Under the pieces are notes generated by a model. That model searched no databases. It had not been told where the DNA came from and saw only the letters and a list, made by a program, of their open reading frames with translations. This document shows, in pieces, positions 7,870 to 47,925 of a stretch of DNA of 55,300 bases (positions within the stretch are counted from its first letter, which is position 1; the number at the start of each line of letters is the position of its first letter). The stretch covers positions 1-55,300 of the forward strand of contig CALIKS010000043.1 of assembly GCA_938017985.1 (NCBI GenBank). The letters are read 5' to 3'. The position numbers and the translations under genes were made by a program. Origin of the DNA: an uncultured archaeon (GTDB taxonomy: Archaea; Thermoproteota; Nitrososphaeria_A; Caldarchaeales; Calditenuaceae).

Positions 7870-7886
7870 AAAATTAATATTTTTAC

Positions 7887-9638: not shown

Positions 9639-9814
9639 GGCTAATAGTATATTCTCGACTTCAAGATATTAATAGCCTTTTAAACCTAATGAATTTGGCA
9701 CGGCCGATCAATAATAAGAATTTCACATAGATATTAAATCATCAGCAATAATGTAAAAATTATTTATTTGTGCGTCATTAAAACTTAAATATTAAAAATA
9801 GAAAATTAAGTTGC

Positions 9815-23098: not shown

Positions 23099-24550
23099 CT
23101 AATTGTCCCAGTCAGGCTTCAGTTCTGGGTTGCACCAAACGTAGTAGATTGGAGACATCCTCGTTGAGAGTATTGTTTTTATGATTTCTCTCCTTGTCCT
23201 GATTTTTCTCTTTCTTTTTCTGAGCATTGTTGGTGCATGCTTGATTATTGAGTTGATTGTTGAGGCGAGCTTGCGGAGCTTCTTGCCTCTGAGATTATTG
23301 ATGTAGCGGTATAGGTATGCTGGTTCATGTATAAGTGTTACTTCTATGTCTGGGAAGACTTCCTGTATCTTTGAGATTAGCTTCCTGTTCTGCTCGTCTA
23401 GGCTTGTCTCATAGTTTATCCTCGTGAGGCCGGCATGCTCAAAGAATGGGTTGAATCTCGCCATGACTGCCAGCGCCTCGATTACTGGATAACCCGTGAG
23501 AGGCATTGTTTCTCTTACGAGCCTAGCTCCGAGCCCGATTCCTCTATATTTCGGATAGACTATGACTCTGGCTATTCTCAACACGTTCCTTTTAAGGACC
23601 TGCAGCAATGCCTTCAGACCCCTCGAGCGGTAAATCTCTAGCAGTCTCGGAAGGGCTATGTGTCTCCCCCTAAGTAATGGATGCGTGATTGCTGAGACAT
23701 AGACAATTACGCCGCATAGCTCGTCTCTCCTCACTGCCCTGTATATTGCCTTAATTGCTGGAGGCCTACCGGCCCTGTAGTGAAACTGCGCTAATGCCTC
23801 ATAGTCAGAGACGTATCCGGGCTCAATCACTATTTCTCTCATGATGCTGCATTCCTCACTATTAATGCTGGGTCGAGTAATGTTTACTTCTGCTCCGAGC
23901 TTCTTATCCACGAGAACTGTTGGCTTCAAATCTTCCAATAGGTCTCTGTGCGTCGTCGCCACTATCAGGGTCATGCCGTTCCTCCTAGCATACTTCTGGA
24001 AGAGATACGCAACTATCCTCGCAGCCTCTCTGTCAAGTGTTGAGCAGAACTCATCCATCACTATTGTTTTTTTACTAGACCAGAGAGCCTTTGCGAGCTT
24101 ATACCTATACTTCTGTCCATCACTGAGCTCTCGGTAGCGCTTTAAGAATAAGAATGCTTCTCCAAGGCCCACTGAGTTGAGTATCTCGATGGCTTCGGAA
24201 GTGTCCCGCCCAACTCCCTCCACCACTACCTCGTCATCATCGACCTCGAGCTCATCACTAGTAATTACTCCCCCGAACTCTCTTCGTCTCTGAAGTATTC
24301 TAGCAATCTCTCTCAGCAATACACTTTTCCCAGAGCCGCTCTCACCAGTTATGTATACTACGTCTCCCGGATTGATGTCTAATCTTAGACCTCTATAGAC
24401 TACTTGTTGCTTCTCGTCTAGGTCTATGCCGAATGCCTGGGACACCTCGGCTACTCGCCTCGTTATCGGCACCGAGGACTTAAAGCTCCTATCAATCCTG
24501 ACGAGAATCTTAGGATGCCCACGGAGCGGGAGCAGTATTAGCCTAACCAT
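23099..24550 (-). CDS. ABC-type ATPase fused to a GNAT acetyltransferase domain (COG2401-like)
   Basis: 483 residues. The N-terminal ~240 form a soluble ABC ATPase (GESGSGKSVL, LSDGQKYRYKLAKAL, TIVMDEFCSTLDRE). The region about 270-380 is GNAT-like, with the acetyl-CoA loop in VIVYPKYRGIGLGARLV. The C-terminus is Arg/Lys-rich (MLRKRKRKIRTRR), suited to nucleic acid binding. No membrane segments, so not a transporter. The order matches COG2401, an uncharacterised archaeal and phage family. Its ATG overlaps the terminase stop by eight bases (AATGGTTAG), so it is translationally coupled to DNA packaging. Confidence 0.8.
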   Translation of the reverse strand: MVRLILLPLRGHPKILVRIDRSFKSSVPITRRVAEVSQAFGIDLDEKQQVVYRGLRLDINPGDVVYITGESGSGKSVLLREIARILQRRREFGGVITSDELEVDDDEVVVEGVGRDTSEAIEILNSVGLGEAFLFLKRYRELSDGQKYRYKLAKALWSSKKTIVMDEFCSTLDREAARIVAYLFQKYARRNGMTLIVATTHRDLLEDLKPTVLVDKKLGAEVNITRPSINSEECSIMREIVIEPGYVSDYEALAQFHYRAGRPPAIKAIYRAVRRDELCGVIVYVSAITHPLLRGRHIALPRLLEIYRSRGLKALLQVLKRNVLRIARVIVYPKYRGIGLGARLVRETMPLTGYPVIEALAVMARFNPFFEHAGLTRINYETSLDEQNRKLISKIQEVFPDIEVTLIHEPAYLYRYINNLRGKKLRKLASTINSIIKHAPTMLRKRKRKIRTRREIIKTILSTRMSPIYYVWCNPELKPDWDN

Positions 24551-26135
24551 TCAGGACAGTCGCTCCTCCAGTCTGCCTAGACTTGATTGCATAGAGCGCC
24601 ATCGCCATGCTCCAGAAAATGTCGACACGGGTGTTTGGACTATGATAGAACCTCACACTGCCATCCATAGCCACTTCATACTTTAGAGCATTCAGCTGGG
24701 CGACCACTTCTCTAGTCAATCCTGAGTCCTCCCTACTAGGTATGTGTAGTGACGAAGCGCCGACCCACCTCTTGGACTCATCCATCCTGCATCCACGCAT
24801 CATTACCTGCTTCAGATACGTCGCCATCTCCTCCTTCGTCTTTGCAGTGAATACTACGCCTAGGAATCCATTGATTCCTGAGTCTCTGATAAGTTCTGAG
24901 ACCGCTTCGCCTACTCCAGTGACGTCAACCGCGATTCTAAAAATTGTCTTCCATTTCTTAGAGAATCGTTTGAGTTGACCAACGATGCTGCCATAACTGG
25001 TCTCGAGCGGCCAAGCCTTGACCAGTCTCACATAGATGTCTTCTCCGAGCTTCTCGACTATTGTTAGGACGCTGTTATCGACTCTCTTTCCAAGGTCCAG
25101 CCCGGCGTAGAGTTCTCTACCCTCAATATCGATCTCCTCGGGCCACCAGTACTGGTCTGGGTCTAGGCAACAGTTGATTAGGCCTAGGCTTAGCCAGCTA
25201 TCCTCGTCCTCAACCCACTCTGCCTCGTACTCCCTTCTAAAGAAGCTTGGGTCTTTACTAATCAATTCACGCTGAATGAATTCTTGAGAAATTATTCCCG
25301 CTCTGACTGCCTCCCTCCATGTCCATCTATGTAGACTCCATCTCTTCTTCTCCTCTGGATCATTGAATATTCTATAGAATACTCCATCTCTCCTCCAGGG
25401 CGTGCTGCTGACTATGATTCTTGCACCCCTGTCCCACCTCGCAGCCATACTTGGCAACAATACACTCTCAAGAAGCTCAGCGTCGTCAGCGAAGTAGCTG
25501 AACTCATCTAAGTAGCAGTAGTCATAGGTCTCTCCGCGTAATCTCTCGATCGCGTTGGGAAGCGCCTCGATCACGCTTCCATTAATAAACTTCACCACTG
25601 TCTTCAGCTCCTCCTGAACGAATGCACGTCTAGGAGTCGAGAAAAGCAGGTCGAGCTGCTCCTTAAGCTTCCTGAGACATTTCTTGGCCTGTCTATAGCT
25701 CGGCGCAACTATGCATGTCCGTGTCTCTGGATTCGTCGCTGCGAGATGTATGAGTTTAAGCGCTATCGCGGTCGTCTTCCCACTCTGTCTGCACGCAGCC
25801 ACAGCAATCATCCTTGAGTCATCCTCAAGCAGCCTCAACTGATAATCCGTCGGCCTAAACCGGGTGAATAGTTCTACAAAGTTCTTGGTAGTCCTAGCCT
25901 CTGAGACACTGTATCTACGCGTCTTCTCATAAAGCATCGATAACTCATAAGTAGCTGCCTGAGTCTTTGGATATATTCGCCTAAATATCCTCGAGGATAG
26001 TGAGGAGCTGCCAGTCAACTCGGCCAGATAGCTCGCAAGAGCGCTGAGCTGTTCTACTTGACACTTTTCAAGCTCTACGCCCCGACTACTAATTACCCTC
26101 CATAACTGACTCTTAGTCAGTCTTTGAGCGCCCAT
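24543..26135 (-). CDS. terminase large subunit (DNA-packaging ATPase/nuclease)
   Basis: About 530 residues. ATPase domain: Walker A-like AACRQSGKTT, then TCIVAPSYRQAKKCL, Walker B YDYCYLDEFSYF, and coupling motif IIVSSTPWRR. RNase H-like nuclease domain: LYAGLDLGKRVDNSVLTIV with first metal-binding aspartate and RIAVDVTGVGEAVSELI. All key residues look intact. ATG at 26135 is chosen over TTG at 26162. Overlaps the small-subunit gene upstream and the ABC/GNAT gene downstream. Packages DNA into the procapsid formed by the products of the portal operon 20 kb away. Confidence 0.92.
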   Translation of the reverse strand: MGAQRLTKSQLWRVISSRGVELEKCQVEQLSALASYLAELTGSSSLSSRIFRRIYPKTQAATYELSMLYEKTRRYSVSEARTTKNFVELFTRFRPTDYQLRLLEDDSRMIAVAACRQSGKTTAIALKLIHLAATNPETRTCIVAPSYRQAKKCLRKLKEQLDLLFSTPRRAFVQEELKTVVKFINGSVIEALPNAIERLRGETYDYCYLDEFSYFADDAELLESVLLPSMAARWDRGARIIVSSTPWRRDGVFYRIFNDPEEKKRWSLHRWTWREAVRAGIISQEFIQRELISKDPSFFRREYEAEWVEDEDSWLSLGLINCCLDPDQYWWPEEIDIEGRELYAGLDLGKRVDNSVLTIVEKLGEDIYVRLVKAWPLETSYGSIVGQLKRFSKKWKTIFRIAVDVTGVGEAVSELIRDSGINGFLGVVFTAKTKEEMATYLKQVMMRGCRMDESKRWVGASSLHIPSREDSGLTREVVAQLNALKYEVAMDGSVRFYHSPNTRVDIFWSMAMALYAIKSRQTGGATVLNG

Positions 26136-26622
26136 CGCTGAGCTCGCTCTTAACGCCCTCAACTATTCTGCTCAGCGTCTCTAGGTCTAGCTCCCTCCTC
26201 TCATGCCTAATCTCAGACATGCATTTCAACACGAGCTCGAGGTACTGCCTCGCGAGCTTCAGGTTTCCCTGCCTGATTACTTCCTGCGCGAGTTCATATG
26301 CCTCTGAAGCTATCTCCCTCACCTCGATGACCATCTCGCTCCAAGTTGGAACGCCTGTAAACCTGTCCTTATCACCCTTCAGGGGCAGCTTATCACTGAT
26401 GAGAAGCGTCTTTACCCTTCTCCTGAGCGTATCTAGACGACTGTTAAGCAGCTGCTCCTTTGATTGATTTTTGCTTAACAATCCGCGCTTCATGAGCCTG
26501 TTGAGTATGACCCAGACCCTGTTGAGGCTTCTCCTCGAAGTATCTCCGTATATCTCCCTCGCTATCTCGTATGCTCCCTTGCCCTCCCTCGCAAGGCTCA
26601 ATATCATTTGAGTCTTATTCAT
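26113..26622 (-). CDS. probable terminase small subunit (HTH + helical)
   Basis: 169 residues. Residues 1-55 form a winged-helix-like DNA-binding unit (ILSLAREGKGAYEIAREIYG, RRSLNRVWVILNRLMKRGLL). The C-terminal part is mostly helical and charged, suited to oligomerisation. Position directly before the large terminase, with a 23-base overlap, is the usual place of the small subunit that recognises DNA for packaging. Its ATG overlaps the upstream stop (ATGA). Family assignment rests on position and architecture. Confidence 0.7.
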   Translation of the reverse strand: MNKTQMILSLAREGKGAYEIAREIYGDTSRRSLNRVWVILNRLMKRGLLSKNQSKEQLLNSRLDTLRRRVKTLLISDKLPLKGDKDRFTGVPTWSEMVIEVREIASEAYELAQEVIRQGNLKLARQYLELVLKCMSEIRHERRELDLETLSRIVEGVKSELSDGRSKTD

Positions 26623-26843
26623 GGCGCAAGCCTCCTCAACAGCTCAGAGAGACCGACACCGCTCAGAAGCGAAGTCAAGACCAACGCGTCCTCAAGCCTG
26701 CCAAGAACAGTCAAGTAAATCACGGCCCCCGCAAACGCAGACACAATTACTGCATAGTAGTCGTAACGAGTCACGCTGAACCTGAAGACGCCTGCCTTAA
26801 CCATGAATCTACCATGCTTCTCAAGCCTACTCGACGCCCTCAA
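26619..26843 (-). CDS. small two-helix membrane protein in the terminase operon
   Basis: 74 residues with two hydrophobic helices (YAVIVSAFAGAVIYLTVLG and ALVLTSLLSGVGLSELL) after a basic N-terminus. Start is a TTG fused to the upstream stop (TTGA); an internal ATG at 26804 is possible. Size and topology resemble holin-like proteins, yet no holin family is recognised. Sandwiched between a 135-residue protein and the small terminase in a stop-start-overlapping operon. Confidence 0.55.
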   Translation of the reverse strand: MRASSRLEKHGRFMVKAGVFRFSVTRYDYYAVIVSAFAGAVIYLTVLGRLEDALVLTSLLSGVGLSELLRRLAP

Positions 26844-27247
26844 CCATCCATCGCCTCCGAAGCATTAATCCTGACAAATGATGCACGCGCCTTCCTCGCC
26901 TCAACCTCAGTCAGCTTAATTATGCTCCTCACAATTGGCAGTGGAATGCTCGTCCAGTGCTCCAAGTCTCCAGACCTCTCAGTAACGATGACCAAGTGTG
27001 GAAGACCATACTCCTTATCCAGATAGACACCTAGGAAGCGCCCAGGCGTCTCAGTCCTCGTAGCTATCGGAGCATCAAGCGGATCAGTCCCATGAGGAAC
27101 CTTAGGAATACTACAAGCATCCAGCCATATAACCTTCACATACTCGTCAAACTTCAACCCTCTTATCACTGATAGATTCTTCTCAAAGACTTCAAGCCAC
27201 TCGCGAACCACTCTTGGATGCCTACTAATTATTAGTCTGCGACTCAT
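26840..27247 (-). CDS. uncharacterised protein, first gene of terminase operon
   Basis: 135-residue soluble protein with no recognised domain. Middle segment VIWLDACSIPKVPHGTDPLD and PGRFLGVYLDKEYGLPHLVIV look like a compact alpha/beta fold. Leftward operon leader: a TATA-like AAATATATTC at 27271-27280 lies about 25-33 bases before the ATG. The operon continues 135-aa, membrane protein, TerS, TerL, ABC/GNAT, each overlapping the next by a few bases. Confidence 0.55.
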   Translation of the reverse strand: MSRRLIISRHPRVVREWLEVFEKNLSVIRGLKFDEYVKVIWLDACSIPKVPHGTDPLDAPIATRTETPGRFLGVYLDKEYGLPHLVIVTERSGDLEHWTSIPLPIVRSIIKLTEVEARKARASFVRINASEAMDG

Positions 27248-27270
27248 CCATCACTAATTACATCATTGAT

Positions 27271-27325
27271 GAATATATTTTCTGCTGATTCATTAAATAA
27301 TTAATTATGTCTCAAATTATAATAA
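27271..27325. promoter_or_regulatory. divergent promoter between packaging and tail operons
   Basis: Minus-strand TATA at 27271-27280 serves the terminase operon (ATG at 27247). Plus-strand TATA TTATAATAA at 27317-27325 serves the connector-tail operon (ATG at 27351). Both place transcription starts at or very near the ATG. A short palindrome CATCA-T-TGATG lies at about 27261-27271. The shared 103-base region can co-regulate packaging and tail genes. Confidence 0.55.
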
Positions 27326-27350
27326 CATCATTTTAACAAATTAATGATAG

Positions 27351-27695
27351 ATGACATACTCATCGATTGAGGATGTAAAGGTTACGAGGCTTGGACTGAG
27401 ATCCGAAGACGCTTCAAGCGACCAAGAGATACTTCAATTCATAATGCAGGCCGACTCCATGATAGATGAATTACACATCAGCCTCGGAGTACCGGTCTCT
27501 TCAAGCAACCCAGAAATGCTTAGGAGAATAAGTGCAGATATCGCGGCCAACCTCTACTTAATCTGGAACACGAGGGATAACAGTGTCAGAGAAACGCTGT
27601 GGCGAGAGATTAGGGAGATAATTGGAGAGCTTCGGCAGAGCCTCACGAGCAGGTCGCCGGGAGGAGCTACACTAACGGGTGGAGAGACGGATTGA
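27351..27695 (+). CDS. head-tail connector protein (gp6-like)
   Basis: 114 residues, mostly helical: YSSIEDVKVTRLGL start, QEILQFIMQADSMIDELH, then IAANLYLIWNTRDN. Small helical proteins of this kind sit on the portal as the gp6/gp15-type adaptor ring. Assigned from size, helical pattern and position as the first gene of a connector-tail series. Its TGA stop overlaps the next TTG start. Confidence 0.65.
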   Translation: MTYSSIEDVKVTRLGLRSEDASSDQEILQFIMQADSMIDELHISLGVPVSSSNPEMLRRISADIAANLYLIWNTRDNSVRETLWREIREIIGELRQSLTSRSPGGATLTGGETD

Positions 27696-28063
27696 AGAAT
27701 AAACTCCTAGGAATCATCATCCTGGCCACGTCTGGAATACTGATACTCACAGTCTCCCCCAACATCTATTCAGCACTGCTACCATTACTTACTGCCGCTT
27801 CTATCTTCTTCACTATTCTGCTCGCTTATTCCGCCTGGAGACTAAGCCTGATTAGTCATGGATTCAAGAGAGCCGCGGCGGCCGCTTCCGGTGGATTCGG
27901 AGCGTTCCTCTCATACTTGGCTGTAACTGATGAGCACTTCAAGAGGGCTAGAGTATTATTAATGCCTCTCGCGGCTGCGCTCTTCGTTGCGGCGACACTC
28001 GCAGCACTTCTCATGAGGATGAATAGGCGTGGAAGGGTAGTGAGGAGGCGTGGGCGTAGCTGA
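27692..28063 (+). CDS. four-helix membrane protein inside the connector cluster
   Basis: 123 residues, three or four membrane helices (LLGIIILATSGILILTV, LLPLLTAASIFFTILLAYSA, GGFGAFLSYLAV, LLMPLAAALFVAATLAALL) and a strongly basic tail (MNRRGRVVRRRGRS). Starts at TTG fused to the connector stop and overlaps the tail terminator gene by 14 bases. A membrane protein between connector genes is unusual for tailed viruses; it might serve particle release or membrane docking. No family recognised. Confidence 0.6.
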   Translation: MKNKLLGIIILATSGILILTVSPNIYSALLPLLTAASIFFTILLAYSAWRLSLISHGFKRAAAAASGGFGAFLSYLAVTDEHFKRARVLLMPLAAALFVAATLAALLMRMNRRGRVVRRRGRS

Positions 28064-28481
28064 AGAGAGGTTCAGACAGGTAGAGGAAGCCCTTAAGAAT
28101 ATTATTACTCGCACTGGAGTCGCTCGGCTAGTCGAGGGAGGAGCCGAGCCGGCCAGGGCCTCTTATCCACGCGTGAGGATCTATGCTAGGCGTGGGAGAT
28201 CGCAGAGATATCTCGTTGGCTCAAGTGCAAGAATGCATATCTGGGATTTCGAGATAGTTATAGAGACTCTCAGCGCGGACTACTCTGAGAGCTATGAAGA
28301 GGCGCTTAGGATTCACTGGGCGATCTATGAGGCGATACTGGCTGAGCCTAACCTTGGAATAGAGTCGTTCTTTGTTGACGCTGAGCCTGCAGTCGAGTAT
28401 GAGTTGACTCAGGTAGGGAGTGATAGGGGAATGTATGGACACATGCTTGTCCAGACAATATCTGTGAGGGCTGAGGCATAG
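28050..28481 (+). CDS. tail terminator / tail-completion protein
   Basis: 143 residues. The layout YPRVRIYARRGRS, WDFEIVIETLSADYSE, EALRIHWAIYEAIL, then GHMLVQTISVRAEA matches tail terminator (gpU/HK97 gp10-neighbour) proteins, which cap the tail tube and join it to the head. GTG start overlapping the membrane-protein gene. Assignment relies on size, alpha/beta pattern and its place just before the tail-tube gene. Confidence 0.6.
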   Translation: MGVAEERFRQVEEALKNIITRTGVARLVEGGAEPARASYPRVRIYARRGRSQRYLVGSSARMHIWDFEIVIETLSADYSESYEEALRIHWAIYEAILAEPNLGIESFFVDAEPAVEYELTQVGSDRGMYGHMLVQTISVRAEA

Positions 28482-28485
28482 TTGG

Positions 28486-28533
28486 CCTCCTCCGTCCAGC
28501 TGGACACAGCGTGTCTGGGGACATAGGAGGTGA
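28486..28533 (+). promoter_or_regulatory. hairpin that can mask the tail-tube ribosome site
   Basis: The 58-base gap before the tail-tube ATG holds a strong Shine-Dalgarno, AGGAGGTGA (28525-28533), and 34 bases upstream its complement CCTCCT (28486-28491). Between them GACAC-AGC-GTGTC (28503-28515) forms a perfect small hairpin. The whole can fold as one long stem that would hide the ribosome site. Confidence 0.45.
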
Positions 28534-28539
28534 GTCAAC

Positions 28540-29475
28540 ATGAGTAGTTGGGCAAGATACATAGCACTGGCTAGGCAGTCCAGCATAGAGACACCTGCGA
28601 CGAGCGGCTTCAAGTACCTACATGCAGACTCCTGCGATCTTCACCTCGAGAAGGAATATGTCTATGACGATGAATGCATCAGCTACATCGAGTATTCAAG
28701 CGCATTTGAGGGGCTAAGAATAGTGAAGGGAGGAATCGAGCTGAGACTCAATCCATCTATGATTGGAGAGCTCCTCAACAGTTTCTTCGGAGGCTCGACG
28801 ACAACGCAGATAGATCCAGCACCCGTCTATGAGCATCTCTACACTCCGAGCAGCAATGTTGTTCCATATACAGTCATCGTTGCGGCTGGAGACGTGGCTG
28901 AGAGGTTTATTGGATGCGGAGTAAGCAGGCTTGAGTTCACGTTTGAGGCAGGCGAGCCGCCGATGATGAGGGCTGAAATATTGGGACGAGACATGGACCT
29001 CACGGAGCCGAGCACTCCCAGTTATCCATCAGTCAGAGACTGGCTGCCGATAGAAGTGTCATTAACGCTGGGCGGCGAGCAAGCATTCATCAAGAGGCTA
29101 GAACTAACTCTGGAGAACGGTCTGAGTGATGATGAATATGTATTGGGAAGCAACGTTCTGCAGAGATTATCGCCTAAGAAGTACAGCGTCGACATTAAGC
29201 TCTCAGCGAGACTGCTCGACACTTCTAGGCTTGAAGAATTCCTAGCTGGTTCAGAGACATCCATGACGATTAGTCTAACCGGCCCAGAGATAGATGGTTC
29301 AAATGAGAAGAGGTACCAGCTCATGATGCAGTTGCCGAGAGTCGTCTATGACTCACATGTCGCAGAGATAGATGCGAGGGAACTACTTGTCGAGGAATTA
29401 GAGATGAAGGCGCTTAGAAGTGAGAATGAACCATCGATAACCGTGTCCCTTAAGAACACCGAGATGGGATACTGA
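28540..29475 (+). CDS. major tail tube protein
   Basis: 311 residues, beta-rich. The N-terminal SSWARYIALARQSSIETPAT is a typical opening of siphovirus tail-tube proteins, followed by repeated strand pairs (IELRLNPSMIGELLNSFFGG, VSRLEFTFEAGEPPMMRAEI, IEVSLTLGGEQAFIKRLEL). The C-terminal SITVSLKNTEMGY completes the barrel. The strongest ribosome site in the cluster (AGGAGGTGA) suits a protein needed in many copies. No sheath gene follows, so the tail is non-contractile. Confidence 0.75.
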   Translation: MSSWARYIALARQSSIETPATSGFKYLHADSCDLHLEKEYVYDDECISYIEYSSAFEGLRIVKGGIELRLNPSMIGELLNSFFGGSTTTQIDPAPVYEHLYTPSSNVVPYTVIVAAGDVAERFIGCGVSRLEFTFEAGEPPMMRAEILGRDMDLTEPSTPSYPSVRDWLPIEVSLTLGGEQAFIKRLELTLENGLSDDEYVLGSNVLQRLSPKKYSVDIKLSARLLDTSRLEEFLAGSETSMTISLTGPEIDGSNEKRYQLMMQLPRVVYDSHVAEIDARELLVEELEMKALRSENEPSITVSLKNTEMGY

Positions 29476-29486
29476 GGCGATGAATA

Positions 29487-29768
29487 TTGAAGATCACTAT
29501 TGACAATGTGGAGTACGAGATAGAGACTAGGGCCAGCGCATGGCCACTGCTATCCCTTATCCAGAGATTCACATCTCCAAGTAGCCTAGAAGAGGCATTG
29601 AAGTCAGGCGAAGAGTTGGAGAAGCTCGTAGACAAGGTGTTAGAGCTCTGTGTAAAGCCATTTCCAGAGAGGCCGGAGCATAAGCCAATCCTAATAATCG
29701 CACTCATGAAGGCCGAAGACATAGCAGTAAAGGAAGCCATCAAGCTGGTCGAAAATTTCCGGGAATAG
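29487..29768 (+). CDS. tail assembly chaperone, short form (G-like)
   Basis: 93 residues, mainly helical and acidic, in the invariant position of tail chaperones between tail tube and tape measure. TTG start with weak GAGG upstream. The frame ends with TAG at 29766, seven bases after the slippery heptamer at 29753. Phage G/gpG homologues bind the tape measure during tail assembly; most ribosomes should make this form. Confidence 0.7.
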   Translation: MKITIDNVEYEIETRASAWPLLSLIQRFTSPSSLEEALKSGEELEKLVDKVLELCVKPFPERPEHKPILIIALMKAEDIAVKEAIKLVENFRE

Positions 29769-29920
29769 CTGAGGCGCTCGTCGTGCTGGGAGAAGCATTC
29801 GGAGTAAGGCCGAGCCAAATACTCAGTGGAAGCCTAGAAGACCTGATGCTGGACCTTGTACTCTACTCGAAAGTAGCTAAGAAGCGGCTGAAAAACCTGA
29901 AGAGACAGAAATGGTCATAG
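29487..29920 (+). CDS. tail assembly chaperone, -1 frameshift product (GT-like)
   Basis: Shifting -1 at A AAT TTC (29753-29759) joins the first 91 residues to an open 53-residue frame that has no ATG of its own near its beginning. This extension reads PGIAEALVVLGEAFG near the joint and ends KRLKNLKRQKWS before TAG (29918-29920). The product is 144 residues with a basic C-terminus. The next gene's ATG (29911) overlaps its end, as expected if the extension is translated. This is the classic G/GT arrangement of long-tailed phages. Confidence 0.75.
29753..29759 (+). other. programmed -1 frameshift slippery site
   Basis: Heptamer A AAT TTC in the zero frame fits the X XXY YYZ rule exactly; after slippage the tRNAs re-pair on AAA and TTT. 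A zero-frame stop follows after two further codons. The following bases (CCGGGAATAGCTGAGGC) are G+C-rich, and could contribute to pausing, but no strong pseudoknot is evident by eye. Confidence 0.72.
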
Positions 29921-30327
29921 AAATTTCGATGAAGGGAGTCGAAGAGGCGCTAAGAAAACTATCGCCAGAGCTGTATAGAAAAGTATTAATTGATTATCTC
30001 AACGCGAGCGCGGAGCTAGTCGCCTCACTATCCTCAGAACATGCGCCGAGAAGGACGGGAAAACTATCATCCTCAATCAGAGCGTCTAGGAAGGGTGAAC
30101 TACTCTTCGAGGTCGCATCAGAGGCGCCATACTCAATATACCTCGAGAAGGGAGTATCCCCTTTCACGCTTAATAGACCAGTCATGATAGATAATATTGG
30201 CTGGCGATTCATAAAGACGCATCTAGGAATTAAGCCAATAGGATTTATCTCGAGAGCATTAGCCATATGGAGACAAGCATCAAATAAATTATTTCAACAA
30301 ATACTAGAAGAAGCCAATCCTGACTGA
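29911..30327 (+). CDS. HK97 gp10-like head-tail / minor tail protein
   Basis: 138 residues. EHAPRRTGKLSSSIRASRKG followed by VASEAPYSIYLEKGVSPF is the HK97 gp10-like signature. The family usually lies before the tail-tube gene; here it follows the chaperones. It overlaps the GT extension by ten bases. Converges on no other gene and is followed by a T-rich stretch that may end some transcripts. Confidence 0.72.
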   Translation: MVIEISMKGVEEALRKLSPELYRKVLIDYLNASAELVASLSSEHAPRRTGKLSSSIRASRKGELLFEVASEAPYSIYLEKGVSPFTLNRPVMIDNIGWRFIKTHLGIKPIGFISRALAIWRQASNKLFQQILEEANPD

Positions 30328-30339
30328 TAAGTCAATTCT

Positions 30340-30382
30340 GTTTTTATTTTTAATTAATTATTTATTTGGGAATTTATAATAA
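30340..30382 (+). promoter_or_regulatory. T-tract terminator and internal promoter before the tape measure
   Basis: The 81-base gap holds a T-rich run (TTTTTATTTTTAATTAATTA, about 30340-30360), typical of archaeal termination. A TATA box AATTTATAATAA (30371-30382) follows, 27-38 bases before the tape-measure ATG. The distal tail genes can therefore be transcribed separately. Confidence 0.45.
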
Positions 30383-30408
30383 CTTGTCGAATTAATATCT
30401 ATTTTTGG

Positions 30409-31809
30409 ATGTCTGAAGGCGAGATTAGAATCAGCTTTGTTGCGGAGGATAGGGCTACGCCCAGCATTAAGACCGTCTCTGACGCCGTTAAGGAGTTCGG
30501 TGAGAGTAGCGAAGAAGTGAAGAGGATAGCTGCAGATGTTGTCAGGGAGTCGAGGGAGGAGCGTCAGGTACTAAGGGCAATCGCTGAGGAGTCCCAGCTA
30601 TTCAGTGAAAAGATGCAGTTTATGGCTGGTCAGCTCAATAATGTTGCATCCCTTGGTTCTAGGCTATTATCACTCTTCAATTCCTGGAACACTGCGATGA
30701 CTCGTGTCAATACGGCTCAGATTGCTCTTAATGATGCTCAGGAGAGGTATGAGCAGGCACTGAACCGTCTTGCATCCGCCGGGACAGTCGAGGAAGTAAT
30801 TAAGGCTCAGAGAGAGCTTGAGAAGGCGGAGAGAGATCTTGAGAAGGCTACTAGGAGCTTCGAGGAGGCTCAGCGCGATGCGCAGATGCAAGTAGTCGCC
30901 ATGGGGCTCAGCCTCGTCGGAATCGTCCCGCAGGGAATGCAGGCCGTGAATTCCCTTGCTACGCTTGCAAGAATGATGCCTACTCTTGTTGGAGGTATTA
31001 ACTCGTTGAAGGTGAGCTTCATGGGGCTTAACGTTGCGCTCGGCCCTGTCGGAATAGCGCTGACAGCCATAGGATTGCTGGTCGCTGCATATGAGACAAA
31101 CTTTCTTGGGTTCAGGGACGCGGTGAATTATGTCGCCTCCTCGATAGGGAGCATGCTAGGTCCAGCCTTGACCTGGCTCATGGATAACGTGTTGAAGCCG
31201 CTTGCCGACTTCTTATCATCAGTCTTCCAGTCAAGCATCCAGACAGTCATCAGAATAATGGACCTATTCTCGGCTGCCGGAAAATCGCTGGGCGAGGCGT
31301 TGGGCTGGGTATGGCAGAACATCCTCAGACCATTAGGCGAGTTCATTGCTGGACTATTCCTCAATTATCTAAGGGGATGGATAGAGGGATTTGAATGGGC
31401 CCAGAATATGGTAAAGAAGATCTGGGACACGATAACCAAGGTGATAAAATCAGCAATAGACGCCATTGCTGGATGGATAGAGGGGCTGACAAAGTCCGTC
31501 AAAGATGCATTCAAGTGGCTACACGAAACGCTTGTTGGACACTCAGTGGTTCCAGAAATGTGGAGGGGAATAATCAGCTGGTACGAGTGGGGGACGAGAA
31601 AGACAGCGAGCATACTTGAGCAGGCCAGAACGAGCCTTACTCCAAGGCTAGAGGCAGAGCTCTCATGGATAACACCTGAAGAAAGAACAAGCAACATCAA
31701 CCTAAAAGTATCAGTCAACATCTCCACAAATGCCGTCAACAATGACTGGGAGACATTAGCGGATAGGCTGGGAGCAGTAATCATGCGTCGCCTAAGAGGC
31801 GTGATTTAG
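30409..31809 (+). CDS. tape measure protein
   Basis: 466 residues. An N-terminal RISFVAEDRATPSIKTVSDA segment, typical of tape measures, then heptad-rich coiled coil (about 100-165, AQERYEQALNRLASAG), central hydrophobic helices (GINSLKVSFMGLNVALGPVG, ALTAIGLLVAAYE) and amphipathic Trp-rich helices to the end. The region around 31395-31540 has repeated W-x-x-I patterns. At about 0.15 nm per residue the tail would be near 70 nm. Longest hydrophobic protein in the tail cluster and placed after the chaperones, as usual. Confidence 0.82.
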   Translation: MSEGEIRISFVAEDRATPSIKTVSDAVKEFGESSEEVKRIAADVVRESREERQVLRAIAEESQLFSEKMQFMAGQLNNVASLGSRLLSLFNSWNTAMTRVNTAQIALNDAQERYEQALNRLASAGTVEEVIKAQRELEKAERDLEKATRSFEEAQRDAQMQVVAMGLSLVGIVPQGMQAVNSLATLARMMPTLVGGINSLKVSFMGLNVALGPVGIALTAIGLLVAAYETNFLGFRDAVNYVASSIGSMLGPALTWLMDNVLKPLADFLSSVFQSSIQTVIRIMDLFSAAGKSLGEALGWVWQNILRPLGEFIAGLFLNYLRGWIEGFEWAQNMVKKIWDTITKVIKSAIDAIAGWIEGLTKSVKDAFKWLHETLVGHSVVPEMWRGIISWYEWGTRKTASILEQARTSLTPRLEAELSWITPEERTSNINLKVSVNISTNAVNNDWETLADRLGAVIMRRLRGVI

Positions 31810-33672
31810 ATGACGATTGAATTACTTATCAGCCAGGAGGACTACGCCGACCGTGCAGTAAATCTCGTGAGGAGAATCTCTCACAGCATGCTTGAGAGCC
31901 TAGAGTTTGAGCTTATGAATCCAGAGCTCGACGAGACTTCTCCAGGAAGAGAAGTAGTGCTCATCGAGGATGGAGAACCAGTATTCGAGGGAGTAATCTA
32001 TCAGCGAGAAATGCGGAGAGAGAAGGAGCTCAGTAGGGCGAGATTCCTAGCATATAGCCGCCTGATAAACTATGAGAGGCATGTAGTATTCAGACTATAC
32101 AGGGCAGGCACCCATGCGGGAGAAATCATCAGGGACCTCGCCATGCTTGAGGAGGGCGTAGACCTGAGTGAAGTACTCGACGGAGAACAACTCGTCTCTG
32201 ACTGGCCAGTCGAGAATGCCTCTGCATTAGAAGTAATGAGAGACACGGCGCGTGGCATAAACTATCTACTAATGATGAGGCCTGGTGGGAGGCTCGTATT
32301 CAGGCCAAAAACGATGAGTACGCCTCTCGGAACGATAAGCGAGGACCAAGTAGTTGCGGCAGAACTAGTAGAAGACAAATGGCGGATGAGGAACAGAGTG
32401 ATATACATCGGAAGCGGAGGAGAAGTCCTAGCAGAAGTGTCTGAAGAGCCCGGCGACATGCCCCTCATAATTCATGACCCATTCCTCACGAGTAGTGCAG
32501 AGGCTGAGAGACGCGCCAGGACGAGGCTAATGATGGAGAAGGAGAGAGGAGTCAGTCTTAGACTTGAGATATTATCCGAGACCTGCAGAGAAATGGGGAT
32601 AGATATAGGCGAGACACTCCTCATAGACCTGCCATCACTCGGAACACGCAGCAAAGAAATGATAGTGCTCGGATTGGAGTATCAACCATCAGTAATGGAG
32701 AAGAAAAGAACGATTATTCTCGGAGGTGCGAGGGAATACTTCGAAGAATTTCTCGACGAGCTGACCAGGGGAGAAGCAGCTTCTAGGTTTGGACATAGAT
32801 TATCTGTCGCCGAGACTCTCAGCAATGTCTCGCTACTAGTATCCAGCATCGTGATGACGCAGAAGATGCAGGCAGATGCTAGGACGCTTAGAATTATCAA
32901 TAAGCCTCCCCTACTCTTAGAAAACCCGATAAATGTCGTGCTTGATGAGAACGGTGAGGCATGTCTGGCCGCGGGCTTCACTTCGGGAAGATTTGATTTT
33001 ATCTTTAGGCCAGAGTCTCCCCTCTTCACTAGGTGGCTCAGAACGCATTACAATTGCAGAGAAATGGATGGATACGTTAGTGTCGACCTGCTTAGAGGAG
33101 ATGGAACAATAATTGAGCGAGACATACCGCCAGACTATGAGTTCAAGTATCTGCCACCTACTCCTGGAGAATTGACCCACGATGCGGAGAAGTGGCGTGC
33201 CGAGAATGCAGTAATCACTAGCTCCGAGTTATCAATAGTGTCGGACCGTAGCATTAAGACTACTAGGCTAGAGACTGGAACCATGAGGCTCGTCTATCCA
33301 TCGATTGGTTATTTGGGATGGAGCCTTAGGGGGATGAGGTTTCTTCGTCTATACCTATACTCGGCAATCGATGGAAACGTTATGGTTAGGCTCCAACAAT
33401 CTGCAAATGAGTATTGTTCAGCAAATCTAAGCGTCTATGCCGGGCTATGGACGAGAAACGAGGTAGATCTATCATCAGTCATAGGCGACCTCCAAGTGCT
33501 TAACTGGCTAGAGCTTGAGACGAGTCTCCCCGTGCTCAGCATTGATTCTGATTATCTCCTCATACCTGCCATGAATGAGAGAATCATCATGCGTTTCATG
33601 CTTTCTAGGCAGAGACCCACTGATGAGTCGCCTAGAGTTGCCTTAGCCAAGATTGTCTGGAGGGAGGGATAG
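31810..33672 (+). CDS. tail hub / distal tail protein (gpD/gp27-like)
   Basis: 620 residues. The first ~380 follow the tail-hub fold: a beta-rich start (LEFELMNPELDETSPGREVV then VFEGVIYQREMRRE), repeated barrels, and SSAEAERRARTRLMMEKERG with a LRLEILSETCREMGIDIGET strand. The C-terminal ~240 residues are beta-rich and may serve as adaptor for the fibre. Starts directly after the tape measure stop. Forms the tail tip ring, but no peptidoglycan hydrolase domain is seen, as suits an archaeal target. Confidence 0.68.
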   Translation: MTIELLISQEDYADRAVNLVRRISHSMLESLEFELMNPELDETSPGREVVLIEDGEPVFEGVIYQREMRREKELSRARFLAYSRLINYERHVVFRLYRAGTHAGEIIRDLAMLEEGVDLSEVLDGEQLVSDWPVENASALEVMRDTARGINYLLMMRPGGRLVFRPKTMSTPLGTISEDQVVAAELVEDKWRMRNRVIYIGSGGEVLAEVSEEPGDMPLIIHDPFLTSSAEAERRARTRLMMEKERGVSLRLEILSETCREMGIDIGETLLIDLPSLGTRSKEMIVLGLEYQPSVMEKKRTIILGGAREYFEEFLDELTRGEAASRFGHRLSVAETLSNVSLLVSSIVMTQKMQADARTLRIINKPPLLLENPINVVLDENGEACLAAGFTSGRFDFIFRPESPLFTRWLRTHYNCREMDGYVSVDLLRGDGTIIERDIPPDYEFKYLPPTPGELTHDAEKWRAENAVITSSELSIVSDRSIKTTRLETGTMRLVYPSIGYLGWSLRGMRFLRLYLYSAIDGNVMVRLQQSANEYCSANLSVYAGLWTRNEVDLSSVIGDLQVLNWLELETSLPVLSIDSDYLLIPAMNERIIMRFMLSRQRPTDESPRVALAKIVWREG

Positions 33673-35652
33673 ATGAGTCAGATAACTTATACTGAGCTTG
33701 AGGGGCAGCCCCTGAGGTGGCCGTATAGACAGGCAGTCCCCATAGAGGCTGAGCAGGTATCTGATAATTCTCCGAAGACTTGGAGCGTATCGACTACTCC
33801 TGCCACGTTGATACAGAACGCTAACACTGGGACGAGTAATGATGTCTATGGCGCCAACATGTTGGCTCAGGTCTTTATCACGCCTAATAGTGCCGTGAAA
33901 ATAACGTCCATTCAGTTGTATGGACTTAAGTCTGGCTCGCCTCCTAACCCTACAGTCGTAGAGATTCGGGACATAAAAGAAAGTAATGAATCGGTAATTG
34001 ATAATGTATATCCGGCCTCCGCAAATATTTTTAGCTATTTGAGGACTAGTCATTATACAATAAATAATGCAATACTTGCGCAGAGAATAAATTATCCGAA
34101 AAATTATGTCCCCACTTCTATAACTGTATACTGTAATGGCGCGGCCACTTATACATTTACTATTAGGAAGGGAAGCATTACTGGAGAAATAGTTTATGGG
34201 CCTCATGAATTCACGTCGGGGGGATACGGCTTCGTTACTATTAATATTCCAGCTCAAAATGCTCCATTTCTATCAGCAAACACGGATTATTTCTATAGAT
34301 TTGACAATAATGCGGGAAGAGGATTAGGAAATCATGAATCTAATGTTAGTCCCTATGGCGAGGCATGGATAGGGACTTCTCCAGACCCAAATAAAGATTT
34401 TGAGCATAAGATTGATGGAATAATTAGTGCGCCATTTCAATTATATGGCTCTCGCAGAATAGCCATGCCTTTCACGACTGTATATGACGTTGGAAAAATA
34501 GAGTTCGTAATTAAAAAAATAGGTAATCCATCAGACTTAGTAATTGAATTAAGATATGGTGATAAAGACGGCCCTATAATAAGCCAGACAACTATTTCGG
34601 CAAATGATATTTCCACTGTTTTATCATGGGTATCCGCATCGTTTAGCTATGATACAATATATCACGGGGAAAAGACTTTCTATTTTATATTCAAGACAAG
34701 CGGAGGCGACTCTGAGAATTATTACGAAATACATTATGCCGAGGCGAGTGGGACAATTTACATAGACACGGGTGAAGGATGGCAATCACAAAACAATTCA
34801 TCACTATTAAAAATACATGTCAAGAAAATTTATCCGGGGGAAAATGTTTTAACAAGAGGAGAAATATCACCAGCGACATGGGGAACCTCGGCTGCATGGA
34901 GAAGCGCATCCATGACATCAATAGCGCTTAGACCTAATACGGTTTATTCATTGGTTGTTTACACGATTGGGGGAGACGCATCAAATAAATATGTAATCCA
35001 TTGTGGAGCCTCAAGCTTGGCAGGATTATTAGAATATTCCTTAACATCAAGCAATTCAGGCGGCTCGTGGACAATTGACACGACTAAAGACCTGAGCTTT
35101 AAGCTCGATGGCGTAGCATACGCAAAAATATATGATGGTTTTAGAGAAATAATTCAAGTAAATGCGCCTGCAATACCTATATTGCAAACGTATGTAGTGG
35201 CGCAGACCTCTAGCAGCATGGAGTTTGCGGGATTTGATGATTATACTCTCACATCGCAAATAACGACTAGTACTTCAACGTCCCAGACAAAGATAACTAC
35301 ATTATCAGCGACGTGGAGCAGGCTTAGAAACTCGCTAACTATGAAAAAAATAAGATGGGAGATATGGGGTGCAGGCGCGGGACTATCGACAAAAGCATTA
35401 ACACAAATTCATGCATACTACAACGTTAATCCTGTTAGGCCTCGTGACTTTGGGTTTACTGAGCTATACATCCTTAGAATAACTGCAGCTGAAGATGGAA
35501 CCCTCGTAATGATAAATGAGCATCAGGCCGCCATGATTTATCTACCCAACAATGGCGACTCATACATAGCTCCTGGAAACTTCAACTTTCCAGCATATAT
35601 AATAACAGTCCTATCAGGCAAACCAATAATAGACATGATTGGAATATTGTAG
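33673..35652 (+). CDS. tail fibre / receptor-binding protein with repeated beta modules
   Basis: 659 residues, almost all beta. Three related modules recur: MLAQVFITPNSAVKITSIQL near 60, APFQLYGSRRIAMPFTT near 250, and a third ending PNTVYSLVVYTIGGD near 430. Each carries a T-x-Y-x-F/V core strand and a NYYEIHY/NKYVIH strand, a layout seen in carbohydrate- or surface-binding jelly-roll repeats. The end (FGFTELYILRITAAEDGTL, INEHQAAMIYL) differs. The middle part (33960-35200) is much richer in A+T than both ends. Likely the adhesin of the particle. Confidence 0.65.
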   Translation: MSQITYTELEGQPLRWPYRQAVPIEAEQVSDNSPKTWSVSTTPATLIQNANTGTSNDVYGANMLAQVFITPNSAVKITSIQLYGLKSGSPPNPTVVEIRDIKESNESVIDNVYPASANIFSYLRTSHYTINNAILAQRINYPKNYVPTSITVYCNGAATYTFTIRKGSITGEIVYGPHEFTSGGYGFVTINIPAQNAPFLSANTDYFYRFDNNAGRGLGNHESNVSPYGEAWIGTSPDPNKDFEHKIDGIISAPFQLYGSRRIAMPFTTVYDVGKIEFVIKKIGNPSDLVIELRYGDKDGPIISQTTISANDISTVLSWVSASFSYDTIYHGEKTFYFIFKTSGGDSENYYEIHYAEASGTIYIDTGEGWQSQNNSSLLKIHVKKIYPGENVLTRGEISPATWGTSAAWRSASMTSIALRPNTVYSLVVYTIGGDASNKYVIHCGASSLAGLLEYSLTSSNSGGSWTIDTTKDLSFKLDGVAYAKIYDGFREIIQVNAPAIPILQTYVVAQTSSSMEFAGFDDYTLTSQITTSTSTSQTKITTLSATWSRLRNSLTMKKIRWEIWGAGAGLSTKALTQIHAYYNVNPVRPRDFGFTELYILRITAAEDGTLVMINEHQAAMIYLPNNGDSYIAPGNFNFPAYIITVLSGKPIIDMIGIL

Positions 35653-35654
35653 AG

Positions 35655-35894
35655 GTGAAAAATGTGAGCTGGATAGACGGTGAGACAGGACTACCATTAG
35701 AGACGGCTGAGAAAATTAAGAAAAAGCTACAAGCAATAATGCTTGAAACGCTGAGGATTAAGGAGAAAGAGGAGCAAATCATAAATGAGGTCAATACTCT
35801 TAGAAACAGGATAGACGAGCTAGCAGCAGAGAACATTCAGCTCAAGGAAATTATTGATAAGCTCACTAAGATTAATTATTCATCCGAAGTGTAG
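35655..35894 (+). CDS. small coiled-coil protein, last gene of tail operon
   Basis: 79 residues; from about residue 20 to 70 a continuous heptad pattern (IKKKLQAIMLETLRIKEKEE, LRNRIDELAAENIQLKEII) predicts a coiled coil. GTG start just after the fibre stop. It may be a fibre chaperone or trimeriser. Ends five bases before the convergent stop of the CBS gene, which marks the edge of the particle locus. Confidence 0.6.
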   Translation: MKNVSWIDGETGLPLETAEKIKKKLQAIMLETLRIKEKEEQIINEVNTLRNRIDELAAENIQLKEIIDKLTKINYSSEV

Positions 35895-38474: not shown

Positions 38475-39278
38475 ATGCAGGAAAGCCGCAGAGAACCATT
38501 CAACTCCATCAAGCATATCCGTCTAGGAAGGACCGAGAAATATCTGCTTGACCGTCTAGAATCTGATGGCTGTGTCCATATGACGCTTTTCGACCCGGAG
38601 AACCATACTTTAGACGAGGCGGCGAGACTCATCAGCAACGCTGAGAAGCAGGGAACAGACGCATTCATGGTCGGCGGCTCAACGGTCTATTCCCACGAAC
38701 GCTTTGATGAGTTCATCAAGAGGATTAAGGAGAATACATCGCTACCAGTCATAATCTTTCCAAACAACGTCAACGCGATAAGTAAGTATGCAGACGCAAT
38801 CTTCTTCATGTCTCTGCTAAACTCTATCGAGTGGTGGTTTATTCTCGGCGCACAGATACATGGCTCATTCCTCGTAAAGGAGTATGGACTCGAGGCCATA
38901 CCCATGGGCTACATCGTCTTCGGCTCAGACACATCCGTAGCAGCAGTAGGCAGGGCCTTCTCACTGCCAGTAAACAAGCCACAGATAGCAGCCTCATACG
39001 CACTCGCTGCGCAGTACTTAGGGATGAGGTTCATTTATCTCGAGGCGGGCTCCGGAGCCACGATGCCGATTCCTCCTGAAGGAGTATCAGCAGTCAAGAA
39101 TACCATCAATGTACCACTCATAGTGGGTGGAGGCATCAGGACGCCGGAGCAGGCAAAGACAACAGTCGAGGCAGGCGCAGACATGATAGTGACTGGCACA
39201 TTAGCAGAGAGAAACATTGAGGAGCTTGGAAAAGTCATAAGAGCGGCAAAAGAAGCAGCCTCTAGAAAAAGCGTCTAA
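38475..39278 (+). CDS. geranylgeranylglyceryl phosphate synthase
   Basis: 267-residue TIM-barrel enzyme that joins glycerol-1-phosphate to geranylgeranyl diphosphate, the first ether bond of archaeal lipids. Motifs: HMTLFDPENHT, FMVGGSTVYSHERFDEFI, PNNVNAISKYADAIFFMSLLN, FIYLEAGSGA and VGGGIRTPEQA phosphate loop. ATG at 38475 is chosen, just after the Elf1 stop; a longer frame from 38364 lies within Elf1 and is spurious. Its 3' end overlaps the DP2 gene's 3' end by 17 bases. Confidence 0.9.
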   Translation: MQESRREPFNSIKHIRLGRTEKYLLDRLESDGCVHMTLFDPENHTLDEAARLISNAEKQGTDAFMVGGSTVYSHERFDEFIKRIKENTSLPVIIFPNNVNAISKYADAIFFMSLLNSIEWWFILGAQIHGSFLVKEYGLEAIPMGYIVFGSDTSVAAVGRAFSLPVNKPQIAASYALAAQYLGMRFIYLEAGSGATMPIPPEGVSAVKNTINVPLIVGGGIRTPEQAKTTVEAGADMIVTGTLAERNIEELGKVIRAAKEAASRKSV

Positions 39279-42200
39279 GCGTTGCTTGTCTTTTACCTTG
39301 CAGGTCAGTTATCTTAGGCTTGAATATTCCATAGATGTTCTCTATCGCTATTAGTGTTCCTTCTCTTATGTATGGGTCCTCGATGTATCTCTCGAGAAGG
39401 CCTGAGGCCAGCTCCACGTATTTCTCTATTGCGCCTCGATAGAGTGTCTGAATAATATCGCCCCCACATAAGTTGCACTTACCGCTTAGTGGAATTCTTC
39501 TCATACGGATACCACATCTCTTACATCTAAAGGACTGTGAGAAGAATGCCCTCATGTTTCCCATGATGTCTGGAAGAATGTGGCTGGCCATTACTCTTTC
39601 AGCTACTTTTTTCTCATCGACTGCTGCTAATCTCTCTGCGAGCCTCAGCTGTGCCTCGACTTTTTCTAGCATTGTTTTTAGCCTCTTATAGACCGATGAT
39701 TGCGCCCCTGTTGATAGTTGCTTCGTGGGTGTAGTGTATGCGAGTCCGTAGTAGCATCCTGAGGTGTTTAGATAATTCTTGAGCAGTGGAATGATTCCTA
39801 TGAGCTTTGAGGCGGCTTCTCTTCTCGATGCGGCTTCATAAAACTCTAATGGGTAGAGCCGGGCAGTATCTACATTATGGGCTTGTTCATCAACTTCCTC
39901 TGGATAAACTTTGACCGTCAAGAGGAGTGGAGAGTCCATCGCCCCACCTATTCTGTCTGGCAGGTAATGCATGCTAAAATTGATGAAGACGTCGAGCAGG
40001 AGCATGGCGCTGTCTTCGTCGCCGTCGCAATCCCTCCTTTTCGCGGCGTGGAGTAGTGGATGCGCATAGATGACGTTAGCATCAGTTATGCCTATGATTC
40101 TGCATGCTACGGCTCCATACGTGTGTGGTGAGAGAACTGCAGCCATTACTCCTATAAGGTCCTCCGGACTCTGGAGCTTGTAGTATTCTTCGAAGCCATT
40201 TATCTTGAGGTACTTATCAATGAATTTTGAAACGTTGAATAGGTGTTCCGCCATTCTTCTCTGAATCACTATATCCTGTATTCTGAGCTCGCATAACTGG
40301 TCTGGTGATACGAGTGGCTGTCCATTAATGTCTGTCTCATAGCCGAGAGACCTCAGCTTCTCTGGACTAACACCTATCTGTGCAGGTGTAAAGTGGGTCA
40401 GAGGCGCGTTTACAGCATCAAACCTTATCGTTCCATCCTTATAGACATAGAGTCCTAGGTTTGCTCTCAGGATTCCCTTGAGGAGCTCTTCCGGCTGCTT
40501 GGATTTATTGGTTAGGACCCTGACTCCCTTGAGGACGCGGGGCGGAGGCTCATATGCCCTCATGAGCTCATCCTCATAAAGCTTCTTTAGGTTCAGGAGC
40601 TGCTTCCATGTCCTCTTTAATTCTTCTCCGCATCTTGGACACTTGTCGTTCACCGGCTCGATGTATTCTGACCCGCATCTGATACATTCTGCCATCATGG
40701 TCGTGGGCCTGCCGCAATGTACGCATCTATCCATCCATGTCTTTTCTCCGCATGTTAGGCAGACCCTCCTTACTAGCTCAACCGCAATCGTCCGAGTGTT
40801 AGTCGCAGTGATTATGTCTCTCTTAGGTCCGCCGGCCATTCCGACTGGAAAGAGCACATGTACAGGAGGCTTCATTCTCCGCTGCCCAGCCTTCTCTGGT
40901 CTACCAACCCTCGCCGAGATTGTGCTGCCCATCCTTGGCCTGTATGGCGTTCCGGAGAGAGTCTCGACTATCTCTGAAATTGTTAGGCCAGAGACATCTC
41001 TCTTGATGAATGGCCTGAATAAAAAGTTCAGTGCCTTTATCCAGCGTATATCGAGCGCTATCTTGCGGTCATGCAGAAAGTGTTCTATCAGCATCTTCTC
41101 AAGGATGGATTTAGCCTCTACGTCGTAATCAAGCATCAGCATTCCTATGCCCTTCTCCGCCCTCGGTATAGACGAGGCTATCCACTTCCTAAGCTTCTCG
41201 ACCTCGGCTCCGGATAAATGGTCCCAGAAAGGCATGAATCGCGGATGAATTGGCACGCGTAGCCTATGACTAATCCTGCATGCGACCTCGACTGGTGGCA
41301 CTACGTTGTAGGGGTCCTTCTGAATCTTTACGAGCCATGAATGGTCTTCTCTGCCTAATGATTTTTCCTTAGATTCCTCTAGCATGACCTCCTGTATCCA
41401 CCATTCCTCGCAGTATCCAGGTGGCTGTAGCTTTACGTTATTCTCGACGCAATCGCCGAAGCTCACCAATATGTCTCCGTTGAAGAGAACCTTGTAGTCT
41501 GTCCTCTCACATTCTGCTAGTTTTTCTTCGCTGTCCACTCTCAAAACTGAGCCGTTCCTGAGAATCACAACTGGAGGCTCTATGCTGCTCACTGGGACGG
41601 CTATTCCTCCCTTTCCTGGATAATCAACCCTCAGCTGTGTGCCAGTGACTATAAAGTTATCCATGAGCCTCATCGTGAATGGATGTATTCCGAGCGCCGC
41701 CATCGATGTTGAGGGCGCCCTACCATACCTAATCCTGAAGCCGCCGAACATTCCTGAAGTTGAGAGAACGGGCCTTCCTCCCACCACGTCGTCTAGACCA
41801 GTATTCTTTCCAGTAGATTTTATCTCGCTTAGCCTAGCAGCGACCTCTGTCATCCACTCCCATCCATCGAGCCCGCTGACCTCCACGATCTTCAAGACCT
41901 TCTTTGCCCTTCCGATTACTCCGTCGTTCAGCACTCTCAACGCTCCACCCCTAAGGTATGGTGTCTCGATTCTAGGCAAGTCCTTATAGGCTGGGACAGG
42001 TATCGGGTCCGTTGCAACTCCAGTAATCTCTATTGGAAGCCTCCTCAGCGTGAACTCGACTATCTCGTCTGGAACATTGTACTGGAAGCGCCCGACCTTT
42101 CTCTTATAGACTCTCAGCTCCTCTATGTATCTACGTATCTCTTGGTCTGTTGGCCGATATACGCCGATGCCTGCTAAGCGTCTAATATAGTCTGCCAATA

Positions 42201-45061: not shown

Positions 45062-45534
45062 TACCTCATCACCACTCTTATCATGTCTCCTGAAGACTCG
45101 GCCTCGTCCAGCGCGACTCCTATTCCTATGAATCCCTCAACAGTCATGGATGGTTGCTCAGAAGTACTGCTAACCTGAACTGTGCCCTGTGGAATGCTTA
45201 CCGCAGTGGTGGCCGAGACTACTCTGCCATTTGCTCCCGCCTTGACCCAGCTACCCCTAGGTATCTGTCCAGCGGCACGCAGCTTGACTACGTTTCCCAA
45301 AAAGTATACGGCTGCATATGTCACAGTGTTTGGCTGTATTGCTTGTCCATCTCCCAGCACTGCTACTACTGTGTCTCCGCTTCCGGCGACAGTCAGCTCT
45401 CCATCGCTGTCTCCGACTTTTAATAGTTCTCCTCCAGTCAATGCGTTTATCCCGGCTCTCACAATCGCTGTGGCTCGTTCTCCTGACCTATAGATTAGTT
45501 GGCCTAGCCTCTGGTCTGGGGATTTATCCACCAT
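45061..45534 (-). CDS. capsid cement / decoration protein (DUF2190-like)
   Basis: 157 residues, all beta and Gly/Val/Ala-rich. GSWVKAGANGRVVSATTAV and FIGIGVALDEAESSGDMIRVVM are the typical DUF2190 capsid-cement pattern. GGGGTGAT lies 6 bases before the ATG, a strong ribosome site suited to a many-copy protein. Overlaps the protease end by 11 bases and couples into the capsid gene. Confidence 0.75.
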   Translation of the reverse strand: MVDKSPDQRLGQLIYRSGERATAIVRAGINALTGGELLKVGDSDGELTVAGSGDTVVAVLGDGQAIQPNTVTYAAVYFLGNVVKLRAAGQIPRGSWVKAGANGRVVSATTAVSIPQGTVQVSSTSEQPSMTVEGFIGIGVALDEAESSGDMIRVVMR

Positions 45535-47861: not shown

Positions 47862-47925
47862 CACTATTCTATTAATTCGTCCTAAATATAACATGCTTAA
47901 TATCTTGTTAATATTGAGGAGGGAG

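Follow-up and report, generated by a model that had tools for sequence, protein, structure and literature searches.

Gene content and layout of the locus

The 55,300-nt stretch of DNA analysed here (the window) belongs to a 1.63-Mb MAG that is 83% complete; named relatives of the source, a hot-spring archaeon, are Candidatus Wolframiiraptor and Candidatus Benthortus (Aigarchaeota/Caldarchaeales). The particle genes lie in a tail/terminase module (24543–35894) and a head module (44054–47894, minus strand) separated by about 8 kb of apparently host genes (Table 1). Within the tail part, the order is tube, chaperone, HK97-gp10-like and tape measure genes, with the chaperone ORF placed between those of the major tail protein and the tape measure protein. 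A large protein of 1136 aa encoded between the modules (39262–42672) is read as a putative large subunit of DNA polymerase D, and the DP1 and Cdc6 genes, replication genes of host type, are found past the head module at 50957–53685. The split head and tail/terminase loci near the Cdc6 and DNA polymerase D genes look like a domesticated GTA-like locus.

Table 1. Positions of the particle-related genes and of the predicted frameshift elements in the window
Feature	Position	Strand	Basis or remarks
ABC-ATPase/GNAT protein	23099..24550	-	found with particle genes in most relatives
Terminase large subunit	24543..26162	-	phrog_2, 3e-47
Major tail (tube) protein, Phage_tube_2	28540..29475	+	PF18906, 3e-22; phrog_290, 3e-30
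Putative G-type tail assembly chaperone, zero frame	29487..29768	+	93 aa; TTG start; stop TAG ending at 29768
-1 slippery heptamer AAATTTC, zero-frame reading A AAT TTC	29753..29759	+	sequence
Putative T-type extension, -1 frame	29759..29920	+	53 codons and TAG (29918–29920); motif G.RPS..L...L.DL
HK97-gp10-like tail completion protein	29911..30327	+	PF04883, 3e-8; phrog_5
Tape measure protein, 466 aa	30409..31809	+	phrog_58 and many tape measure families, 1e-13
Tail/baseplate protein, kept in relatives	31810..33672	+	profile matches, comparison with relatives
Head module: major head protein-like	44054–45061	-	
Head module: scaffold	45061–45534	-	
Head module: unassigned gene	45524–46588	-	
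Head module: portal	46560–47894	-	

The ABC-ATPase/GNAT fusion protein, about 490 aa long, also occurs in L017, L022, L024, L026, L046 and L049–L051; in three comparisons, relatives were 45–47% identical to the window copy. A P-type ATPase gene beside the portal gene (48217–50952) was considered as an orthologue of the tail-side one in G006 and G004 and was dropped at an identity of 25–32%.

The probable chaperone gene and its predicted slip site

The slippery heptamer is located close to the end of the zero frame; two sense codons lie between it and the stop, and its last base is 9 nt upstream of the last base of the stop codon. The predicted shift codon is Phe TTC (29757–29759); Phe occupies this position in every one of 11 aligned zero-frame products of close relatives. 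With a -1 slip, the C at 29759 would be read twice (CCG...) and 53 codons would be added, giving a predicted fused product of 144 aa with the joint peptide ...LVENFPGIAEALVVLGEAFGVRPSQ.... The last preceding stop in the -1 frame is TAA at 29681, and this frame is open from 29684, so that the slip is confined to 29684–29768. The extension has a basic C-terminus, KVAKKRLKNLKRQKWS, and its TAG extends 10 nt into the next gene (ATG at 29911). The original prediction, which placed A AAT TTC at the end of a 93-residue frame and described a basic extension open for 53 codons in the -1 frame, is borne out in these points; it also had the extension end in an exact overlap with the next ATG, of which the overlap stands and the exactness does not.

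A perfect X XXY YYZ heptamer occurs in about 8% of random in-frame stretches of overlap length taken from ORFs of the window, and its presence in a single sequence is therefore only suggestive. RNA folding and Shine-Dalgarno scans found neither a stimulatory RNA fold nor a well placed Shine-Dalgarno-like sequence at the slip site; a stimulator is reportedly not required at phage G/GT sites (PMC5009743).

Conservation across related loci

Homologues of the tube protein, sought in genomes of the order, class and phylum and in IMG/VR contigs, were the starting point of the comparison. The resulting set comprises the window and 26 loci from Aigarchaeota/Caldarchaeales, other genomes of the phylum and IMG/VR contigs; a locus was counted only where the chaperone region was present and complete. 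All 27 possess an overlapping pair of short and extended ORFs after the tail tube gene. A -1 shift is required in 18 of them and a +1 shift in the other nine.

Perfect X XXY YYZ heptamers are present in 15 of the 18 -1 loci, window included (1.14 expected; none of 20,000 simulations as high), and an in-frame TTT followed by C or T is present in all nine +1 loci (1.09 expected); the expectations were drawn from in-frame stretches of the same loci, and since the loci are partly non-independent, several being from sister species, these numbers are strong but not exact. Slippery sites at the -1 loci are beyond chance. The heptamer A AAT TTC is found in the window and in Benthortus L056, and the other perfect sites are A AAT TTT, G GGT TTT, C CCT TTT, C CCT TTA, A AAA AAC, A AAA AAA and T TTT TTA. 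Three sites are imperfect: GGG TTT TCC (L055), G GTT TTT (L059) and G GAT TTT (L048). No -1 heptamer was found in the nine +1 loci; the in-frame TTT precedes CGG, CGT or CGC in eight of them and TGT in L060. TTT is rare in G006 and G004 (1.3–3.4 per thousand codons versus 31–38 for TTC), and the slip site is nevertheless TTT; CGN codons are rare compared with AGA/AGG in the +1 genomes examined. Conservation of the heptamer among homologues, named as a check in the original prediction, extends to the 15 loci mentioned, but not to the nine homologues that shift +1.

The exact sequence of the window is carried by only one MAG, of 83% completeness, in which a one-base length error in the short AAAATTTCCGGG run would merge both frames. 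It is nevertheless exceedingly improbable that the apparent frameshift stems from misassembly, or from an indel that recently inactivated the gene, and that the true gene has one frame: in each of the 26 independently assembled relatives the split falls at the corresponding position, almost always with a slippery site, and the zero-frame codons past the slip (F-R-E) fit the F-R-(G/E)E of the relatives, which would not be expected were the frame wrong.

No homologue lacking both the slippery site and the extension was found among the loci compared, a case that the original prediction had named as contrary. L026 (G016) is without the entire chaperone-to-baseplate stretch: on the reverse strand at 7203–9934, the downstream gene and the ABC-ATPase gene come immediately after the tube protein gene, and the chaperone, gp10-like, tape measure and baseplate genes, present in three sister species, are absent, owing to deletion or misassembly.

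Selection on the extension

In six close pairs, the extension beyond the overlap has dN/dS values of 0.304, 0.261, 0.244, 0.120, 0.154 and 0.181 (0.12–0.30, versus 0.06–0.22 for the tube protein). The extension is under purifying selection and is conserved as a protein, with a conserved G.RPS..L core, and the neutral decay envisaged as a counter-indication in the original prediction is not seen.

Re-initiation or translational coupling close to the stop of G might yield the extension as a separate T protein, using the GTG at 29783, 15 nt past that stop; several relatives also have an ATG or GTG early in the extension. In L058, L059, L046, L047, L020, L078 and L074, however, there is no ATG or GTG in the first 28 extension codons or none at all (TTG was not counted), and re-initiation gives no reason to keep slippery sites, which makes this origin of the T part very unlikely. 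To judge from the sequences, a second, longer protein is almost certainly made by a one-base backward slip.

Identity of the cassette and proposed mechanism

An AF2 model of G, obtained with 11 G proteins (pLDDT 88.6), contains a beta hairpin and three helices. The top viral match of the predicted G structure in Foldseek is a tail assembly chaperone (probability 0.99 but a weak E of 0.03), and many chaperones are present in the top 20. PDB profile and fold searches gave no match, and neither the chaperone nor the fusion matched any Pfam or PHROG family by sequence, chaperone families included. The ORFs that undergo frameshifting reportedly share little sequence similarity from phage to phage (PMC5009743), and a Pfam/PHROG chaperone match was, for this reason, not treated as defining. 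No relative emerged from a viral scan with the tube protein of the window, and neither the tape measure protein nor the slip-site DNA of the window gave a match when scanned; phage records held only distant tube proteins, from actinophages and Thermoanaerobacterium phages.

Gene order, the overlap and slippery site conserved in 27 loci, the selection on the extension and the predicted fold with its viral matches of weak E all support the tail chaperone with -1 frameshifting named in the original prediction. The window very probably contains a G/GT frameshift of the kind found in phages and haloarchaeal viruses, with a 93-aa G protein and a 144-aa GT protein arising from a -1 slip.

The overlap, the site, the retention of both in relatives, the purifying selection on the extension and the homology of the locus are shown by the sequences; the slippage itself, how often it happens and what G and GT do are inferred. 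The majority of ribosomes would make the 93-aa G protein. In a minority, the Asn-tRNA on AAT and the Phe-tRNA on TTC would re-pair one base upstream, with AAA TTT, and these ribosomes would read into the 53-aa extension to give the 144-aa GT protein. If the lambda system is a guide, the tape measure protein would be coated with many G and few GT molecules, and the T part would recruit tube subunits, both G and GT being absent from the finished particle. In the +1 relatives, the Phe-tRNA would shift from UUU to UUC or UUU, with a rare Arg CGN codon next in most.

Direction of the predicted frameshift

Unexpectedly, the fused-protein tree places the window together with the +1 loci L020–L025 (98/96); the tree of the tube protein alone gave no firm placement of the window. 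Joining the window and the other -1 rows as one group is rejected (AU p = 0.005), as is a single clade of all +1 rows (AU p = 0.0045; p = 0.024 with the tube protein), where both hypotheses were set up after inspection of the alignments and some branches are long. Gene order agrees with this: the gp10-like gene is located 3′ of the chaperone gene in the window and in L020–L025, and 5′ of the tube gene in L052–L058 (-1) and L070 (+1). Both directions are present within both gene arrangements, and at least two changes of direction must therefore have taken place.

The slip codon, Phe, is common to the -1 window and its +1 relatives. The same heptanucleotide AAATTTC is read as A AAT TTC (-1) in the window and L056 and as AAA TTT C (+1) in L021, L022 and L074. 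Evolution is probably free to change the direction of the programmed frameshift within this single family of homologous archaeal chaperones: one and the same Phe codon, and even the string AAATTTC, would serve both directions, and at least two switches would have left the G and T parts unchanged. As an alternative for the nine +1 loci, slippage by -2 was discarded on inspection; it offers no cognate re-pairing at the TTT codon, whereas +1 re-pairs in all of them.

Chromosomal setting and possible domestication

No integrase was found on the window's contig, and no viral replication genes accompany the particle genes; the nearby DP1 and Cdc6 genes are host-type ones. The particle genes of genus g6 lie between the same host genes (HSP20, permease and acyl-CoA dehydrogenase), and the terminase of this genus has 83% amino acid identity versus 80–86% for the host flanks, with dS of the same order. 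Its tape measure, gp10-like and tail-tip genes diverge faster than the terminase gene. In G002, from the window's family, the terminase and tail genes lie beside Cdc6 (75%) and DP1 (48%), as in the window. The particle genes look domesticated, given the lack of an integrase on the contig, the separation of head from tail genes and the shared chromosomal addresses, and the g6 and G002 addresses support vertical descent of a putative GTA-like or tail-only device. Prophage regions have been reported in Caldarchaeales (PMC10547907), and GTA-like elements have been suggested for Thaumarchaeota (PMC5797428, PMC6563490).

The lack of a recognisable integrase on this contig, the split element and the loss of the chaperone-to-baseplate stretch in G016 could also be taken to mean that a decaying provirus left the two frames behind, with products no longer used. 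Against this, G, the extension and the tube protein are under purifying selection in the six close pairs, and the terminase and connector genes of genus g6 diverge like the flanking host genes, so that decay of this kind has very little probability. Retention of the frameshift cassette argues that the elements still build tails.

Comparison with known systems

As in lambda G/GT and its counterparts in long-tailed phages, the window has a short ORF between the tube and tape measure genes; it shares with lambda an overlapping -1 ORF and, late in the first frame, an X XXY YYZ site with no obvious stimulator. The slippery site of lambda is G GGA AAG. The window differs from lambda-type cassettes in its site, A AAT TTC, in its archaeal host and in the lack of detectable similarity to Pfam/PHROG chaperones.

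In tailed phages, the shift is -1, -2 or +1, differing by phage, and among haloarchaeal tailed viruses, HVTV-1 and HCTV-1, -2 and -5 use -1 and HSTV-2 likely +1 (PMC5009743). The scarcity of archaeal examples assumed in the original prediction needs correction in the light of these viruses. Like the present loci, they represent archaeal G/GT frameshifting in both directions (PMC5009743). They are, however, free viruses of halophilic Euryarchaeota, whereas the present case is a chromosomal element of Aigarchaeota/Thermoproteota, in which both directions occur inside one homologous chaperone family.

The immobilised, GTA-like tailed proviruses of Thaumarchaeota (Nitrosocaldus, Nitrososphaera) resemble the window in keeping morphogenesis genes, in having no replication or integrase genes found and in the suggestion of domestication (PMC5797428, PMC6563490). 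Unlike them, the window has two modules with other genes in between, and the parts of the reports consulted do not discuss frameshifting.

No description of G/GT frameshifting in Aigarchaeota was found in the open-access literature. New here are the thermophilic Thermoproteota host, the retention in 27 of 27 loci and the switches of direction at one homologous codon. G/GT frameshifting, known from bacterial phages and haloarchaeal viruses, is extended in this way to a tail locus of thermophilic Thermoproteota that is chromosomal and apparently domesticated. As evidence, the 27-locus set speaks for selection on the synthesis of both products and for an exchangeable shift mechanism; its matched -1 and +1 sites could be used to measure how archaeal ribosomes frameshift.

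Other genes of the related loci

A subtilase-family protease gene is located inside the structural cluster, just before the tube protein gene, in L046 (8272–9483; PF00082, 7e-28) and, as a member of the same sequence cluster, in L047 and L048–L051. In L017 (3582–5567), L018 and L019, the prohead protease and the major capsid protein are apparently fused in one 660-aa ORF. The post-terminase genes of L051 (18163–18999) and L050 (18662–19999) are 99% identical, against only 38–84% for the particle genes, pointing to a recent transfer or a mobile gene at the element's edge.
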